From Chloroflexota bacterium (lineage in GTDB: Bacteria > Chloroflexota > Dehalococcoidia > Lucifugimonadales > Australimonadaceae): a DNA stretch of 53,617 nt. The stretch's first letter is position 1, and every line of letters begins with the position of its first letter. A program made the position numbers and the translations under genes. Shown in pieces: positions 8,938 through 20,297 of this stretch. The notes under the pieces were generated by a model. That model ran no database searches. It saw only the letters and a program-made list of their open reading frames with translations, and was not told where the DNA came from. The DNA lies in NCBI GenBank assembly GCA_009838965.1, contig VXQP01000011.1, positions 1 to 53,617 of the forward strand. Direction: 5' to 3'.

Positions 8938-9017
8938 GAGGGCCTCGCGATCCAGTTTTAGAGGGTCATTCTAACAAGCAACGTGAACCGGCTCAGGGTG
9001 CCGCCATTCTCAAAAGA

Positions 9018-9046
9018 GAAGCCCCCCGGGTTCTCCGGAGGGCTTC
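9018..9046 (-). terminator. Rho-independent terminator of the secreted-protein array
   Basis: On the minus strand GAAGCCCTCCGG pairs with CCCGGGGGGCTTC across a short loop, followed by a TCTCTTTT run. It lies 27 bases beyond the stop of the last of three tandem secreted-protein genes and separates them from glutaryl-CoA dehydrogenase. Confidence 0.75.
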
Positions 9047-9072
9047 CAGGTTTCGCCTATGCCTCGTGTGGC

Positions 9073-9813
9073 TTACGAGGGGCAGTGGTCAGGAACGCCC
9101 TGGCCTCCCTTCAACCCCTCGATCTCCGCCGTCAACTCGACGATCTGCGCGTCGAACTGCGCCTCGAAAGCAGGGTAGAACGCGGTCGCCAGCGCCCAGG
9201 CCGCATCGGACACATTGACGGGCTTGTCGCCCAGACCCTCATCCCTGTCGGCTTGGACGAGCGCGAGGTCAGACTCCAAGCCGGCGATCTCCTCGGCCAG
9301 AGCGACGCGGTCGCTCAAGCGGCAGAAAGCCAACGGTGTGCTGGTGATGACATCGAACGTGCCGGGGTCGATGACACTGAGGGTACGCATGCGCTCCACG
9401 TTGCCGTCGCCGGGGCCTATGCCGGAGCGTTGGCGGGTGAAGCGGCCAAGCGTCCAGACACTTGTCCATGCGCCTTGGTCGTTGGCAACGAGGGTGTTGT
9501 TGGCACTCTTGTTGCTCACGTAGTTCGTGATGTCGGAAGGAGTGCCGGGGCCGTCGTTGATAAGGAGGATGACCTCCTGGCCGGGAGCGAAGCCCGCGCC
9601 CCAGATGCGAACCTGCACACGAGACGAGCGCGCGCCCAACTGGTGGTTGACGACCACGTCTCCTGTCACGACGCTCTCGACTCCGGAGATGTGCCCGTCG
9701 GCCGATGCCTTCGGAGAGAGGATGGCGTTCCCGGCTACCAAGCCGAGCAGCAGTCCCGCAGCGATAAGCGCCAGAACCATGGCCCGGGGGTGAGTTGCGA
9801 TTGCCTTAGTCAC
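9073..9813 (-). CDS. Secreted protein of the tandem three-member family (third copy), C-terminal extended
   Basis: 246 residues from a GTG at 9813 with AGGAGG upstream. Signal peptide: basic start, hydrophobic core about residues 12-30, likely cleavage after ASA before DGH. The mature part shares a layout with the two upstream genes: RIWGAGFAPGQEV (Ig/TIG-like strand-turn), a GAWTSVWTLGRFTR segment, LAFCRL, and a cysteine close to the end. Unlike its siblings it has about 60 extra residues, predicted as an alpha-helical coiled coil (LAEEIAGLESDLALVQAD and a second heptad stretch near 225-240), between the two conserved cysteines. Function unknown; extracytoplasmic location is well supported. 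Confidence 0.75.
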   Translation of the reverse strand: MTKAIATHPRAMVLALIAAGLLLGLVAGNAILSPKASADGHISGVESVVTGDVVVNHQLGARSSRVQVRIWGAGFAPGQEVILLINDGPGTPSDITNYVSNKSANNTLVANDQGAWTSVWTLGRFTRQRSGIGPGDGNVERMRTLSVIDPGTFDVITSTPLAFCRLSDRVALAEEIAGLESDLALVQADRDEGLGDKPVNVSDAAWALATAFYPAFEAQFDAQIVELTAEIEGLKGGQGVPDHCPS

Positions 9814-9837
9814 GATTACCTCCTGTGGACCTTACGC

Positions 9838-10413
9838 TTACGCCGAGCAGAAGTTGGGGACTTCCACGGGTTCCGCTTCAGGATCGTCATTCCGTGTCAG
9901 GTTGCAGAGCGCGATTGGTGCGCTGGCTAGGAAAGTGCCGCTGGTCTTTTCCACCGCCCACATGGTCGCCAGACGCTCTGCGCCAACGTTCTGGCGGGTG
10001 AAGCGTCCGAGGCGCCACTTGGTCGCGAAAGCACCGTCGTCGTTCACGATGAGCGGCCAGACGCTGCCCGCGCCGTCGCGGTAGCGGGCGGGGTCACAGT
10101 TGCCCTCGTCATCCCAGCGGCAGGCACTGATGATGTAGAGCGCACCCTGGAAGTCCGCCACCATGAGTTCCACTTCGATACCCGGGGTGAAACCGGAGCC
10201 GCGGATCCAGACTTCTTCTCCCGAACGGCTCGCGCCCGGTTCGAAGTTGACCTCGGTGTGCGAGAGCACGATGCCTTCGGTTCCCGTGGCATGCCCGTCG
10301 GCGCGCGCACCCTGGTATGCCGAGAGCGCGATAGCGAGCGCCAAGCCAGCGATGAGACCGGCAGCGATCAAGATGGTCGCTGACCGTTTCGTTACTATGG
10401 TCGTACCTGTCAC
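9838..10413 (-). CDS. Secreted protein of the tandem three-member family (second copy)
   Basis: 191 residues from a GTG at 10413 preceded by AGGAGGACTCA. The signal peptide has a hydrophobic core about residues 12-30, and the mature start would be DGHATGTEG after ARA. Conserved blocks shared with its neighbours: WIRGSGFTPGIEVELMVAD, then GAFATKWRLGRFTR, then APIALCNL, with a final cysteine three residues from the end. A short insertion holds one extra cysteine pair (ACRWDDEGNCDP). The GSGFxPG turn is typical of Ig-like extracellular domains. No enzyme motif is visible. It lies 40 bases from the first copy and 24 bases from the third, so all three are one transcript. Confidence 0.75.
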   Translation of the reverse strand: MTGTTIVTKRSATILIAAGLIAGLALAIALSAYQGARADGHATGTEGIVLSHTEVNFEPGASRSGEEVWIRGSGFTPGIEVELMVADFQGALYIISACRWDDEGNCDPARYRDGAGSVWPLIVNDDGAFATKWRLGRFTRQNVGAERLATMWAVEKTSGTFLASAPIALCNLTRNDDPEAEPVEVPNFCSA

Positions 10414-10453
10414 TGAGTCCTCCTGCTCAACGAGTCTTCAAGGGGCTGGGGGG

Positions 10454-10966
10454 TTACGCCGAGCAGTGGCTCGGGACTTCGGCATCTTCGGCGCGGCCGC
10501 TGAGGTTGCAGAGCGCCAGAGGAGCAGTCGCCAGTTCGTCGAACGAGCCCGCGTCCACTGCCCTGACCGACTGCATGCCCTCGCCGCCGACACCGGTGCG
10601 GGTGAAGCGACCGAAGGTCCATTCGAACCCGAACGCGCCGTCGTCGTTGGCGACCACATCGACGCCCGAGAGAGCGCCAACGTCCGTGGCAACGCCACGC
10701 TGGTCGGCAATCAGGACGAGGACGCTCTGACTGGGGTTGAAGCCGGACCCGTAGATCCACACCGCAGTGCGAGAACTGCGCGTTCCAGGAACGAAGTCGG
10801 CCTCATTCGGCGTGACCACGAGCGTCTCCCCGCCGGTGGCGTGACCGTCGGCGCGCGCGCCTTCATTCGTGGAGAGCGCCGCCGCGAGGGCGAGTCCCAC
10901 CAGAGCGGCAGCGGCCAATGTAACCAATGCGAACCGCGGCGACAGTAGTGAATACGTTCGAGTCAC
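10454..10966 (-). CDS. Secreted protein of the tandem three-member family (first copy)
   Basis: 170 residues from a GTG at 10966 with GAAGGAGG upstream. Signal peptide core about residues 14-32; predicted cleavage ARA before DGHATGGE. The body carries the shared blocks WIYGSGFNPSQSVLVLIAD, GAFGFEWTFGRFTR and APLALCNL, and ends SHCSA. It is the shortest and simplest version of the family and is closest to the promoter at 11034-11061. The two late cysteines conserved in all three copies could form a disulfide. I do not recognise a named family; an Ig/TIG-like fold is inferred from the GSGFxP turn only. Confidence 0.75.
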   Translation of the reverse strand: MTRTYSLLSPRFALVTLAAAALVGLALAAALSTNEGARADGHATGGETLVVTPNEADFVPGTRSSRTAVWIYGSGFNPSQSVLVLIADQRGVATDVGALSGVDVVANDDGAFGFEWTFGRFTRTGVGGEGMQSVRAVDAGSFDELATAPLALCNLSGRAEDAEVPSHCSA

Positions 10967-11033
10967 GGCTTTCCTCCTTCAACCCGATGCTCACGGCCAG
11001 ACAACTCGTGTGTGCCGCGAGTGCGGCGCAGAG

Positions 11034-11061
11034 GCTATAAGGGTTTGCCGCTGCGTGTCAA
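11034..11061 (-). promoter_or_regulatory. Strong sigma-70-type promoter for the secreted-protein array
   Basis: On the minus strand: TTGACA (11061-11056), a 16-base spacer, then TATAGC (11039-11034). The -35 is perfect. It lies 67 bases before the GTG of the first array gene and after the stop of the MDR gene at 11112, so the array is probably transcribed independently. Confidence 0.65.
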
Positions 11062-14765: not shown

Positions 14766-15003
14766 CGGCAGAGGATCGGGCCGCAGATAGATTCCTCAAC
14801 GATCATTACTTGGTCGCCCCGCCAGCCGTTCATTACAGCACATGCTCCACATGGCAGTGAGAACGAGTCTCAAGAGATTCACACTCCCCGGAATGCCTTG
14901 CGGCTTGAGTTTCGAGTGGGAGATACTGCCCCCAACTGGTCCATCTGGACATACGCAGGATGGAGAGACCGTAGGTCTATTGCATCTTCGAAAGGAGAGT
15001 GCC

Positions 15004-16221
15004 ATGACGGTGAGGTACATTCAGCGTGTTGCTCTCGTCTGTCTGCTACTGATTCCGGCACTTGTGGTTGCCGCATGCGCAGACGAACCGACACCCACTC
15101 CTACAGCAGCGCCTACAGCGACACCTACGCCGCTACCGCCATTCAAGATTGGAGTGATGGAGTCGCTCACGGGACCCGGGGAAACTTACGGAACCGTTTC
15201 CAACCAGGCCAAGCAGATGGCGGTCGACGAGATCAATGCAGCCGGTGGCATCAATGGGCGCATGATCGAACTCATAGTAGAGGACTCAAAGTGCAGCGCC
15301 CAGGACGCAATCACTGCGTACAGGAAACTCACCGACGTGGACGGCGTGAAGATCATCCTGGGTACATCCTGCAGCGGCGCGATGCTTGGCGCAGCACCCC
15401 TGGCGGAAGATGATGGCATCGTGCTCTTCTCCGGGCTGGCGACCAATCCGGACATCGCGGAAGCCGGCGACTACATCTTCAGGACGGCGATGAGCGACGC
15501 GCAGCTCGGCATCGACACAGGCAACGTGCTGTGGGCCGACGGCATCCGTACGCTGGCTACCATCACGGAAGCAACCGATTACGCTGAGGGCGTGCGCCGC
15601 TCATCCGTTGCCCAGTTCGAGAAGCTGGGGGGAGAGGTCGTGGGGGCGGAGCGGTACCCATCCGACATCGTCGACTTCAGGAGCCAGTTGACGAAGCTGT
15701 TCAATGCGAATCCGGACGCGCTCCATATCGCCGCTCAGGCGGAGTTCAGCGGCGGCACCATCATCAAGCAGGCCCGCGAGCTCGGCTTCGACGGGCCCAT
15801 CTACTCCGAGGTCGTACCCATCGGAGCGACAGCCCTGGAGGTTGCTGGTGAAGCCGCCACTGGGGTGAAGGCCATCACGGCAGACCTCGACCCCGCCAAC
15901 CAGAAGGCGCAGGAGGTGCTCCGCAACTTCCGGGAGACCTACGACTACGTCACGCTCCCCTGGTACCTGGGGTCAGCGTATGACGACGTATACATCACTG
16001 CAGAGTGCCTCAAGCAGACCGGTGACGACCAGGACGCAGACGGGTTCCGGGACTGCCTGTACGAGATCACCTGGAGCGGGGCCATCGGCAATAACTTCAG
16101 CTTCGACGACAAGGGCGAAGTGGTCGGCCTCTCCAACGTGGTCGTTGAGGTGCTGCCGGTAGCCGAGAGGACGGAAGACAACCAGGGCTACAAGGTCCTG
16201 GGTGGGGCTCCTACGCAGTAG
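15004..16221 (+). CDS. livJ: Branched-chain amino acid-type ABC transporter solute-binding lipoprotein
   Basis: 405 residues from the ATG at 15004, with GAAAGGAG upstream. The N-terminus is a lipoprotein signal with lipobox VAAC at about residues 23-26, followed by a Thr/Pro-rich tether. The mature part starts FKIGVMESLTGPGETYG, the usual opening of periplasmic-binding fold type I (LivJ) proteins, and includes AAGGINGRMIELIVEDSKC. It is the first gene of a livJHMGF set. The family imports amino acids but also amides, urea, aromatic acids and other small carboxylates, so the ligand is open. A stem-loop follows its stop. Confidence 0.85.
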   Translation: MTVRYIQRVALVCLLLIPALVVAACADEPTPTPTAAPTATPTPLPPFKIGVMESLTGPGETYGTVSNQAKQMAVDEINAAGGINGRMIELIVEDSKCSAQDAITAYRKLTDVDGVKIILGTSCSGAMLGAAPLAEDDGIVLFSGLATNPDIAEAGDYIFRTAMSDAQLGIDTGNVLWADGIRTLATITEATDYAEGVRRSSVAQFEKLGGEVVGAERYPSDIVDFRSQLTKLFNANPDALHIAAQAEFSGGTIIKQARELGFDGPIYSEVVPIGATALEVAGEAATGVKAITADLDPANQKAQEVLRNFRETYDYVTLPWYLGSAYDDVYITAECLKQTGDDQDADGFRDCLYEITWSGAIGNNFSFDDKGEVVGLSNVVVEVLPVAERTEDNQGYKVLGGAPTQ

Positions 16222-16235
16222 GAGGCATCATCTGA

Positions 16236-16262
16236 GCCCCCGCTGACCACGGTCGCGGGGGC
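16236..16262 (+). terminator. Intercistronic stem-loop between livJ and livH
   Basis: GCCCCCGC (16236-16243), 11-base loop, GCGGGGGC (16255-16262): perfect 8-bp stem. There is no U-tract. Its place right after the binding-protein gene fits a partial terminator or mRNA-stabilising hairpin that raises binding-protein output over the permeases. Confidence 0.6.
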
Positions 16263-16275
16263 CGGGATCCCTTCA

Positions 16276-17631
16276 GTGCTACGCTCCGCCGCATATCGTG
16301 AACGCCGAGGCAGGATCCTCGCGGCATCCCTGACCACCGTGGCGGCTGCCTACGTGGTCTGGAAGATAACCGAATCCCCCGACCAGGCCGTGCAGTTCGC
16401 GTTCAATGGATTGTCTGTGGGCGCCGTGTATGCGCTCCTCGCGCTGGGGTTCACTCTCGTCTATAGCACCGTGTGGTTCTTCGATCTGTACTACGGCGCC
16501 GCGGCGGCGATGGGGGCGTATGGCGTCTTCTACCTGCGGACCTCCGAGACAGTAGGCGGGAGCCACGTCAACAATCCTTACGTGAGCGCCATATTCGCCC
16601 TCGTCGTGGCCGGAGTGATCGCCTGGGTGCTTTACGAAGCCTTCTTCATCCGACTGCAGAGCCGCTTCACCCACAAGTCGCTGTATATCGCCGGTGGGAT
16701 GCTCGCAGGTGCCACGGGTATCTACACGGGGTTCGTCCTGACCAATCCGGACCACCTTCATCTGCTGCTGAGCCCCGCCGTCGGAGCCGTGGCAGCCGTG
16801 GTGGCGGGTTGGGTCGTGAACCGGGTGATACGGCGCCTCTTCTCGAATACCGGCCGTACGACGCTCCTGACGACCTCCGTCATCGTGGGGTCTCTGTTCG
16901 GTGCGTGTTGCGGTCTGCTCCTTGCAGGTGCTCCCGAGTCGAGGCTCTACCTGAGCTGGGCGATGTCCTGCCTGGTGGCGGGAGCCGTGGGCGTCGCGCT
17001 GTACCGGAGTCTGTACGTGTACATGCGCAAGCGGGCCCGGTCACCCCTCATCATGCTCGTCGCCTCGCTGGGTGTTCTACTGGCCATCACCGCAGCCACC
17101 GCCATCGTGTTCGAGAGCGCTCCTCGCCCGCTGCCTCGAGCGTTCGGGAGCGAGCCCTGGACGATCTGGGGCAGCAACATCAAGGGGTTCAACATCTTCA
17201 CCATCGGCGTGGCCATCGCCGGGTTCCTGGGGTTGCTGTTCCTCCTCAAGAGGACCTCGCTGGGTAGAACGATACGGGCCATCGGCGACGACGAAGAAGT
17301 CGCGAAGGTGGTGGGCATCAACACCACCGTCGTCATCGCGATAGTGTTCTTCATCGGAGCGGTCTTCGCCGCTGCGGCCGGTCTGTTGAGCGGACACGAC
17401 ACGGCCATCCAGCCACGGATGGGCCTGCTGCTCATGCTGAAAGGCTGGATAGCCTCCGTGGTGGGTGGGATGGGGAACCTGTACGGGGCGGTGGTCGGCG
17501 GTTTCGCGCTCGGCATGGTTGAACAGTTCGGTATCTGGGACCTCGCAGGAGAGTGGAAGGACGTCATCTCCTTCGTCATCCTTATCCTCTTCCTCTCTTT
17601 CTGGCCCCGGGGACTGCTACCGAGGGGATAA
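16276..17631 (+). CDS. livH: ABC transporter permease, LivH type, enlarged
   Basis: 451 residues from a GTG at 16276. The core LivH features are present: GLSVGAVYALLALGFTLVYS early, then GRTIRAIGDDEEVAKVVGIN, which is the cytoplasmic coupling loop contacting the ATPases, then a GGMGNLYGAVVGGFALGMVEQ motif and the end FWPRGLLPRG. Typical LivH proteins have about 300 residues; this one has roughly 130-150 extra, placed between the first helices and the core (about residues 95-235), rich in additional hydrophobic segments separated by basic turns. The reading frame is intact, so the insertion is real unless the assembly is wrong. It works with LivM in the membrane channel. Confidence 0.8.
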   Translation: MLRSAAYRERRGRILAASLTTVAAAYVVWKITESPDQAVQFAFNGLSVGAVYALLALGFTLVYSTVWFFDLYYGAAAAMGAYGVFYLRTSETVGGSHVNNPYVSAIFALVVAGVIAWVLYEAFFIRLQSRFTHKSLYIAGGMLAGATGIYTGFVLTNPDHLHLLLSPAVGAVAAVVAGWVVNRVIRRLFSNTGRTTLLTTSVIVGSLFGACCGLLLAGAPESRLYLSWAMSCLVAGAVGVALYRSLYVYMRKRARSPLIMLVASLGVLLAITAATAIVFESAPRPLPRAFGSEPWTIWGSNIKGFNIFTIGVAIAGFLGLLFLLKRTSLGRTIRAIGDDEEVAKVVGINTTVVIAIVFFIGAVFAAAAGLLSGHDTAIQPRMGLLLMLKGWIASVVGGMGNLYGAVVGGFALGMVEQFGIWDLAGEWKDVISFVILILFLSFWPRGLLPRG

Positions 17632-17635
17632 CGCT

Positions 17636-18691
17636 ATGTCCACGGACTCCGGTGGAGGTGGCAGCCTCATAAGAGCGGCGCGCGAGCCGGGTGTGTTCAT
17701 GCGGCTGGCGAGGGGCAACCTCGAACTGTGGGCCAACCTCGTCGTCATCACGTGGGCTGTCGTGTTCGCGATATGGCAGGGGTCCGGGTTCGCCATCACG
17801 CTGGGGACCGTCTTCGCCATCTGGGCGATCCTGGCGGTCAGCCTCAACCTCGTGGTGGGGTTCACGGGGCTGCTGTCGGTTGGTCACATCGGCTTCTTTG
17901 GCATCGGCGCCTACACCGTGGCAATCCTCACTTCGAACGCACAGTACGAGCAACTGCGCACAGAGGCCATTCCCACGTTCGGATGGCCGTTCTTTGCCGC
18001 GTTGCCTGTCGGTATCGTCCTCGCGGGGCTGACTGCCATAGCGGTAGGCGTCGTGTTCAACAGGTTCAGGGACGACATCTTCGTGCTCGTCTCTTTCGGT
18101 TTCGCGGTTATCTGCTTCAACGTCTTCCTGAACTCACGGGCACTGACGAGAGGAGCGTTCGGCATCCACGAGATCGCCAAGCCCGAGATTGGCAGCGTGG
18201 CCTTCGGCAGCGAGGTGGCGTTCCTCATCCTCGCCCTCGTGTTTCTGGCGGTCGTCGTCCTCATCTCCTGGCTCATCGTGAGTTCCTCATTCGGACGAGT
18301 GCTTACCGCGATACGAGAGGATGAGCGAGCGACGGAGGTCTTCGGTTATCAGGTAACGCACTTCAAGCTGACAGTCTGGGTGATCTCGGCCATGATGGCC
18401 GCCGCCGCGGGCGGGCTGTTCGCCAGTTGGACGACTTTCATCGACCCCAACTCGTTCATCTTGCTGGAGTCGATCCTGCTCGTGTCCATCGTCATCCTGG
18501 GCGGGCTGGCCACGATATGGGGTTCGATCCTCGGAGCGATGGCGTTTGTGCTGCTCGAAGAAGGGATGCGGTTCCTTCCGTTCCTGCCTGACGAGTACGT
18601 CGGTCAGGCGCGTCAGGTCATCCTGGGAGTGCTGTTGGTCCTGCTGATGCTTTTCAGACCCCAGGGGCTCCTCGGGAGGTACAAGCTATGA
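17636..18691 (+). CDS. livM: ABC transporter permease, LivM type
   Basis: 351 residues from the ATG at 17636, four bases after the livH stop and with GAGGGGATA upstream; the frame is open further back inside livH but that part is not coding. LivM hallmarks: LNLVVGFTGLLSVGHIGFFGIGAYT, the coupling loop FGRVLTAIREDERATEVFGYQVTHFK, GGLATIWGSILGA and the end LFRPQGLLGRYKL. About nine hydrophobic segments. It forms the channel with LivH. The stop overlaps the livG start (ATGA). Confidence 0.9.
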   Translation: MSTDSGGGGSLIRAAREPGVFMRLARGNLELWANLVVITWAVVFAIWQGSGFAITLGTVFAIWAILAVSLNLVVGFTGLLSVGHIGFFGIGAYTVAILTSNAQYEQLRTEAIPTFGWPFFAALPVGIVLAGLTAIAVGVVFNRFRDDIFVLVSFGFAVICFNVFLNSRALTRGAFGIHEIAKPEIGSVAFGSEVAFLILALVFLAVVVLISWLIVSSSFGRVLTAIREDERATEVFGYQVTHFKLTVWVISAMMAAAAGGLFASWTTFIDPNSFILLESILLVSIVILGGLATIWGSILGAMAFVLLEEGMRFLPFLPDEYVGQARQVILGVLLVLLMLFRPQGLLGRYKL

Positions 18692-19449
18692 GCATCCGCA
18701 CAGAGAGCGACGGCGAGCGCTTCGCCCTGGAGACGATCGAGGTTGCGAAACACTTCGGCGGCGTGCACGCGGTTGACGGGCTCTCCATAGCGATACCCCG
18801 CGGGAAGATCACCTGCGTCGTCGGCCCCAACGGCTCCGGCAAGTCCACGCTCATCAACCTCCTGAGCGGGATGCTGCCGCTGGACGGAGGAGTAGTCATC
18901 GTCGACGGCGTGCGTCTCCGAGCAGTGAAGCCACACGAGACGCCCGGCCTCGGCATCACCCGCACGTTCCAGGACGTTCGTCTGTTCGACCAGATCAGCG
19001 TCTGGGACAACATCATGGTGGTGTTGACGGAGAGGCGCCTCCTGCCTGCGCTGCTCGAACGAGGGAAATCCCGGCAGCGAGAACGGACGGAGCAGATACT
19101 GCGGAGCGTGGGCATGTGGGAGAAACGGCGCTCCCTGGCGATGGACCTCTCATACGGCCAGCGGAAGTTGCTGGAGATTGGCCGGGCGATGGCACTGAAC
19201 GTCAATACGTACCTCTTCGACGAGCCGTTCGCGGGACTCTTTCCACAGATGCTCGAACGGGTGAAAGACCTCATGCGGCAGTTGCGCAATGATGGCAGGA
19301 CCCTCCTGTTCATCTCGCACAACATGGATATCGTGCGGGAGTTGTCCGACCACCTGATCGTGATGGACAGCGGAAAGCTCCTCACCGAGGGAGATGCAGA
19401 GGAGGTACTGGCTCAGCCTGAAGTGATCGAAGCGTACCTGGGAGTCTAG
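18688..19449 (+). CDS. livG: ABC transporter ATP-binding protein, LivG type
   Basis: 253 residues. Walker A GPNGSGKS at 46-53, Q-loop TRTFQDVRLF about 91-100, signature LSYGQRK at 154-160 (a Y for the usual second glycine-position residue, common in LivG), Walker B YLFDEP at 175-180, switch His211. The ATG overlaps the livM stop by four bases, so translation is coupled. It hydrolyses ATP on the cytoplasmic side together with LivF. Confidence 0.9.
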   Translation: MSIRTESDGERFALETIEVAKHFGGVHAVDGLSIAIPRGKITCVVGPNGSGKSTLINLLSGMLPLDGGVVIVDGVRLRAVKPHETPGLGITRTFQDVRLFDQISVWDNIMVVLTERRLLPALLERGKSRQRERTEQILRSVGMWEKRRSLAMDLSYGQRKLLEIGRAMALNVNTYLFDEPFAGLFPQMLERVKDLMRQLRNDGRTLLFISHNMDIVRELSDHLIVMDSGKLLTEGDAEEVLAQPEVIEAYLGV

Positions 19450-19469
19450 TAGCCCGGGCCAGCCAGACG

Positions 19470-20297
19470 GTGAGCGACGTGGAAGAGCAAGACGGACAAC
19501 CGGCCATAACAAGGGAGGACAACGGCAGCGCAGGTGCGGAAGGCAACGTGCTGGAAGATTCGTTCATCCTCGAGATGGTCAACGTTTCCGTGCGCTATGG
19601 GGCGGTCAGCGCCCTCGAGGATGCGTGTCTTGGCGTTCGCAGGGGCGAGGTAGTGGCGGTGATGGGGCCTAACGGAGCGGGGAAGTCCACCGTGCTGAAA
19701 GGACTGATGGGGTTGGCGCCCGTGGTCGCAGGACAGGTGTACTGGCGCGGGGAACGATTGACGTCCGCCACGCACGAGATCGTGAAGCACGGCATCGCGT
19801 TCGTCCCCCAGGGAAGGCGGCTCTTCACGCACCTCACCATCGAGGAGAACCTCGAGATGGGATGCCCGTACCTCAGAGACCGGCCTGAGGTGCGCCGCCG
19901 CATGGACTCGGTCATGGAACTCTTCCCCGTTCTGCATCAGAAGCGGCGGGACCTGGCGAGCCAGATGTCCGGCGGGCAGCAGCAGATGCTGGCGCTGGGC
20001 CGGGGCCTGATGGCCAATCCCGAGTTGCTGCTGCTGGATGAGCCTACCCTGGGGCTGGCCCCGAACATCGTGAAGGAAGTCTTCCAGACGGTGGCGCTCA
20101 TCAGCGAACGGCTCGGCACGACCATCATGGTCGTGGAGCACAACATCAAGGGCGTGCTGGACATCGTCGACCGTGCCTACATCCTGGACACGGGACGCGT
20201 CGTCTTCGAGGGCACCCCGGCATCGGTGCGCGAGACGAACATCCTGGCGGAGGTGTTCCTCGGCAAGGTGCAGCGCGCCGATCCCGACGAGCCGTAG
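19470..20297 (+). CDS. livF: ABC transporter ATP-binding protein, LivF type
   Basis: 275 residues from the GTG at 19470. Walker A GPNGAGKS at 66-73, Q-loop AFVPQGRRLF, signature MSGGQQQ at 166-172, Walker B LLLLDEP at 186-192, then GLAPNIVKEVF and switch histidine in VVEHNI. The first 26 residues are hydrophilic and not part of the domain; a GTG at 19548 with GGAAGG upstream would give a 249-residue protein, nearer the normal LivF length, and may be the true start. It ends the plus-strand importer operon and stops six bases from the end of the convergent MmgE/PrpD gene. Confidence 0.9.
   Translation: MSDVEEQDGQPAITREDNGSAGAEGNVLEDSFILEMVNVSVRYGAVSALEDACLGVRRGEVVAVMGPNGAGKSTVLKGLMGLAPVVAGQVYWRGERLTSATHEIVKHGIAFVPQGRRLFTHLTIEENLEMGCPYLRDRPEVRRRMDSVMELFPVLHQKRRDLASQMSGGQQQMLALGRGLMANPELLLLDEPTLGLAPNIVKEVFQTVALISERLGTTIMVVEHNIKGVLDIVDRAYILDTGRVVFEGTPASVRETNILAEVFLGKVQRADPDEP

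Follow-up and report, generated by a model that had tools for sequence, protein, structure and literature searches.

A conserved cluster of three predicted exported Ig-like proteins in marine SAR202 bacteria, with remote relatives in transporter operons

SAR202 bacteria have a wide distribution in the ocean and also occur in sponges, and the proteins of their outer layer are poorly known. The described systems closest to the gene trio reported here include the IPT/TIG domains and other bacterial Ig-like domains (PF01833 and its kin), which share with the trio proteins a G-x-G-F-x-P-G turn and a predicted beta sandwich. The weak matches found among 393 genomes of the class belong to this circle: they are general Ig-like lipoproteins and repeat proteins, among them collagen-like lipoproteins that have a single Ig domain and proteins with TIG-like repeats. 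Unlike IPT/TIG proteins, the trio proteins are single-domain, carry a GRFTR block and end in a cysteine pair with a variable insert. The neocarzinostatin family (PF00960) is close to the trio in size and may resemble it in predicted fold, but shows no significant sequence match to it; an extra cysteine pair inside the domain occurs in copy 2 only, and a tail slot bounded by cysteines is not known among the features of that family. Described tripartite tricarboxylate transporters (TTT) consist of three parts, none of which is known to be Ig-like. Remote members of the present family are encoded inside TctA/B/C operons, whereas the trio is not. The S-layer proteins of Dehalococcoidia are, like the trio proteins, exported and probably located outside a cell that lacks peptidoglycan. 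The trio proteins differ from them in having no visible anchor, and typical S-layer proteins are larger.

The window, the whole stretch of 53,617 nucleotides that was analysed, holds three tandem open reading frames on the minus strand, in agreement with the coordinates and strand given for them in a preliminary description. Copy 1 (10454–10966), the first gene of the operon, encodes 170 residues, with a signal peptide at residues 1–39, an Ig-like domain at about residues 43–156, and Cys153 and Cys168. Copy 2 (9838–10413, minus strand) encodes 191 residues in a similar layout, with an extra cysteine pair at residues 98 and 106. Copy 3 (9073–9813, minus strand) encodes 246 residues, and in it a predicted helical hairpin lies between Cys164 and Cys244. 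When the genome was searched with copy 1, copy 3 was found at E=4e-25 and copy 2 at E=5e-20, so the similarity of the three is not due to chance. The same search found two remote paralogues on other contigs.

All the features that the preliminary description had listed are found in each copy: a hydrophobic N-terminus leading to an AxA↓DGH site, the GxGFxP turn, the GRFTR motif, CNL or CRL, and a last cysteine followed by two residues before the C-terminus. The AxA↓D site is a signal-peptidase-I site and is preserved across copies and genomes; export of the trio proteins is well supported. No membrane or wall anchor is left in them once the signal peptide is cut, and they might merely be released from the cell. 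The ribosome site AGGAGG of copy 1 lies at 10973–10978. The GTG starts noted earlier, each with an AGGAGG-like ribosome site, are preserved in the cassettes of the eight genomes compared. In one genome (G001; L039 9695–10336), copy 1 has a near-duplication of about 40 residues around the signal peptide, which is either real or an assembly fault.

Two genera of one SAR202 family have the full trio in each of their eight genomes examined: the source genome and G001–G005 of genus g1, and G014 and G015 of genus g7. In genera g2 and g4 a single copy was seen at the place of the cassette; in G007 the gene is cut by the contig end. The searches of genome sets scored the best few candidates per genome, and their counts are lower bounds. 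At least 12 of 16 genomes of the SAR202 family have a match, and a match occurs in all 10 family genomes with at least 90% completeness and at most 5% contamination. Beyond the SAR202 family, the 393 genomes of the class yielded clear relatives in at least two genomes, both of family f25; a phylum-wide search of 400 genomes added at least one further weak match. Homologues with the same motif blocks do exist, and their absence would have counted against the preliminary description. Those with names come from metagenome-assembled genomes of SAR202, Dehalococcoidia or Chloroflexota, which places the host in Chloroflexota. The bacteria that carry the trio are marine, uncultured members of SAR202, and at least one comes from a sponge. 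No paper describing the family was found in the literature, and the trio is a lineage-specific new family within a familiar fold.

A promoter-like site, TTGACA-16 nt-TATAGC, is located at 11034–11061 on the minus strand, 95 nt upstream of copy 1, and is conserved in the two genera. The form TTGACA-(15–16)-[TG]ATAG[CT] precedes copy 1 in all eight trio clusters, in keeping with the shared promoter proposed before. At the other end, a hairpin of 13 pairs followed by TCTTTTG (9017–9047, minus strand) forms the terminator. A strong hairpin stands 3′ of copy 3 in each of the eight operons, mostly with a T-rich tail, so the earlier claim of a terminator after copy 3 also holds. A consensus scan for promoters and terminators overlooked both the promoter-like site and this minus-strand terminator, and the cross-genome comparison recovered them; the promoter-like site was missed because its −10 hexamer lacks the final T. 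A short hairpin, GCCGC-ACTC-GCGGC (11014–11027, minus strand), lies close to where the mRNA presumably begins. In the second genus the equivalent place also holds a hairpin, its register shifted by one base, and the sharing of a 5′ hairpin by two genera is suggestive only. A compensatory change in it was considered and dropped, since pairing one base off register is no true covariation. Copies 1 and 2 use codons as ordinary genes do. This is a weak test, in which ribosomal genes barely differ from the background, and codon bias was set aside as uninformative on high expression.

The preliminary description recognised no named domain and suggested an Ig-like extracellular fold, to be checked by structure prediction. 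Pfam and NCBIfam give no match above cut-off for the trio proteins, and in particular no Pfam or NCBIfam S-layer family matches the window copies. No copy in the window matches PF01833, which one of 30 family members reaches at E 0.0079, under the curated cut-off. AlphaFold, run with 30 family members, predicts copy 1 as a beta sandwich with a mean pLDDT of 82 and about 90 over much of the domain. For copy 3 the predicted sandwich is weaker, and an antiparallel helical hairpin (helices 166–192, 203–210 and 213–236) is confidently predicted between the cysteines. In Foldseek and VIA-align searches, neocarzinostatin, repeats of adhesins, MG domains of complement and further Ig-like domains score similarly; one S-layer chain is matched by fold at a middling Z. 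These matches to solved structures fix the class of the fold and not the function. An Ig-like fold is well supported by these models. A confident match to a family of enzymes or S-layer proteins would have spoken against the earlier view, and none was found. Weak matches to Peptidase_M17_N_1, MdoH and antibody light chains fall under cut-offs and were taken as chance, as was an HCV_NS4a match of the G009 protein, which falls on its signal region.

The best Foldseek match of copy 1 is neocarzinostatin (E 4e-4; VIA Z 8.2, rmsd 2.8, 100 aligned), and two of the 30 members, neither a window copy, weakly touch PF00960. Small-molecule carriers of the neocarzinostatin kind could be read from this. 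However, the Z score is tied with those of unrelated Ig-like domains, and the sequence matches are far below significance (best E 0.039, none above the curated cut-off), with no match at all in seven copy 2 proteins. The characterised neighbours of the cassette do not form a biosynthetic cluster either, and we hold such a carrier role to be very improbable.

The two tail cysteines, Cys153 and Cys168 in copy 1 numbering, are invariant across the alignment of 30 members, which takes in the remote paralogues. Every SAR202-family member examined has an even number of cysteines in its mature domain; since they are paired in every member, a disulfide between the tail cysteines is likely, and is the simplest reading of the sequences. 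The extra pair of copy 2 (98, 106), within an insert, is invariant among copy 2 orthologues. The f25 relatives have no cysteines, and the GRFTR block is found more widely than the pair. VKOR and Thioredoxin_4 have no match in the source genome (96.6% complete). No exported oxidase was found there, the sole DSBA-family match having no visible signal peptide, so the disulfide would form without a known catalyst.

Judged from the sequences, the stretch between the tail cysteines is a general insertion slot of variable length. It comprises 14 residues in copy 1, 18 in copy 2 and 79 in copy 3 of the window, and 8 to 137 across the family. The length is 8 in the ABC-linked type of paralogue, 13–20 in copies 1 and 2, and 26–30 in the g2 single copy and the TTT-linked type. 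It is 79 in copy 3 and also in the Ala/Val/Glu-rich tail of G007, 107 in G009 and G011, and 137 in copy 3 of G005. The insert of about 60 residues previously reported between the cysteines of copy 3 measures about 61–65 residues and is the predicted hairpin. At two loci (L046 9756–11012 and L047 8985–10241), each with 107 residues in the slot, an N-terminal domain containing two cysteines is fused to the Ig-like domain. No library names the extra N-terminal domain of the g4 single copies (G009 and G011); a cupredoxin (copper-protein) reading of it, made by eye, found no support in Pfam or PDB sequences and was rejected.

In a tree of the Ig domain, copies 1, 2 and 3 fall into separate clades; support is 95 for copy 2 and 100 for copy 3, but no more than 68 for the whole copy 1 clade. 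Each clade covers both g1 and g7; therefore the genes were triplicated before these genera split. The single copies of g2 and g4 group beside copy 2. The dN/dS of the mature parts is 0.02–0.32, which is purifying selection. It is well supported that the three copies are old orthologous lines, separately kept, and such separate old clades under purifying selection make redundancy of the copies unlikely. The same values bear on adhesins or secreted factors acting on a sponge host or its matrix. One carrier, G001 (probably MPMJ01000003, of MPMJ bin16), was binned from the sponge Aplysina aerophoba, adhesin domains are among the structural matches, and the insert slot varies. Yet the copies are conserved, not diversifying, with dN/dS well below 1, and relatives from other families sit within transporter operons; a role toward the sponge is improbable.

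These relatives concern the origin of the family. In f25, a relative is encoded inside a TTT operon in the order TctC-[Ig]-TctA-TctB, the gene names being assigned by reading the sequences. Small exported Ig-like proteins in such f25 operons lie at L087 1311–1772 and L088 4720–5271. In the genus of the source genome, one paralogue comes after a gene with a weak TctC match and a gene for a TctA-family protein (TctC-like-TctAB-[Ig]). Another paralogue stands beside a solute-binding protein (SBP) lipoprotein, an ABC permease and a cupin in the source genome and relatives. The identities of these three neighbours come from Pfam for the source genome and G005, and from reading or similarity for G001, G002 and partly G004. 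This paralogue, with the solute-binding lipoprotein, a 600-residue ABC permease and the cupin, was seen at L056 15527–16111 and near 9.2–10.1 kb of L090, L091 and L093. The trio family seems to have descended from relatives adjoining nutrient-uptake genes, and such descent would place the trio probably on the outside of the cell.

The trio proteins could be accessories for substrate capture or docking, working with solute-binding proteins on the surface of a monoderm cell and serving a transporter encoded elsewhere. The GRFTR-like relatives inside the f25 TTT operons and after the TctC-like and TctAB genes of the source genus speak for this, and so does the paralogue joined to an SBP, a permease and a cupin in several genomes. 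But the trio is flanked by a promoter-like site and a terminator of its own, no transporter gene adjoins it, it is not in a TctABC operon, and its conserved neighbours are dehydrogenases. We consider this uptake role somewhat unlikely and rank it next after a surface assembly.

Around the cassette the window holds genes for an alcohol dehydrogenase, an acyl-CoA dehydrogenase, a quinone oxidoreductase-like protein, a dienelactone-hydrolase-like protein and a MetE-like protein; the oxidoreductase and hydrolase names come from reading the sequence. The order alcohol dehydrogenase-[cassette]-acyl-CoA dehydrogenase is conserved, and most neighbours recur in other g1 and g7 genomes and beside the g2 single copies. 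The g4 single copies share the acyl-CoA dehydrogenase neighbour with the cassette, and G005 is an exception to the neighbourhood. With its own promoter-like site and terminator, the cassette is linked to the dehydrogenases by position. A few kb from the trio, at 14842–20294, lies an uptake operon of the branched-chain amino acid ABC type, which by reading of the sequence encodes a binding protein, two permeases and two ATPases.

SAR202 cells and isolates have been described as monoderm; they are reported to lack peptidoglycan and to bear an S-layer-like outer coat (PMC10444878, PMC11994032). A search of the source genome, at its 96.6% completeness, gave no match to a penicillin-binding transpeptidase (control matched in 10 of 14). 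We tentatively favour, at somewhat less than even chance, a reading in which the trio descends from accessory proteins of transporters and supplies exported Ig-like subunits to an assembly on the outer surface of a SAR202 cell that lacks peptidoglycan. It is preferred because of the export, the fold, the old paralogy, the reports of monoderm SAR202 cells and the lack of matches to penicillin-binding transpeptidases. Against it speak the absence of an anchor after signal-peptide cleavage, of an adjoining transporter gene and of an exported oxidase in the source genome and, weakly, the ordinary codon usage of copies 1 and 2. The trio would have arisen by duplication within a family of extracytoplasmic proteins that act as accessories to TTT and ABC uptake systems, and the three proteins would act outside the cell. 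In copies 1 and 2 the disulfide would pin the tail as a short loop, in copy 3 as a helical hairpin. Each mature protein would be a subunit that the other two cannot replace, within a single surface assembly, a coat or scaffold, in which the copy 3 hairpin may be a spacer or contact arm. A wider proposal, that wall-less Chloroflexota possess a TTT/ABC Ig-like accessory family with a disulfide-bracketed slot of 8–137 residues, one branch of which was triplicated into coat subunits, is unlikely to be right as a whole.

The remote relatives in transporter operons and the tail slot of variable length are new here. The transporter-linked relatives are the chief new lead and suggest that tripartite tricarboxylate transporters of Chloroflexota have a fourth, hitherto unrecognised component. 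The conserved cluster of exported Ig-like proteins offers a concrete candidate for the outer layer of SAR202 bacteria.
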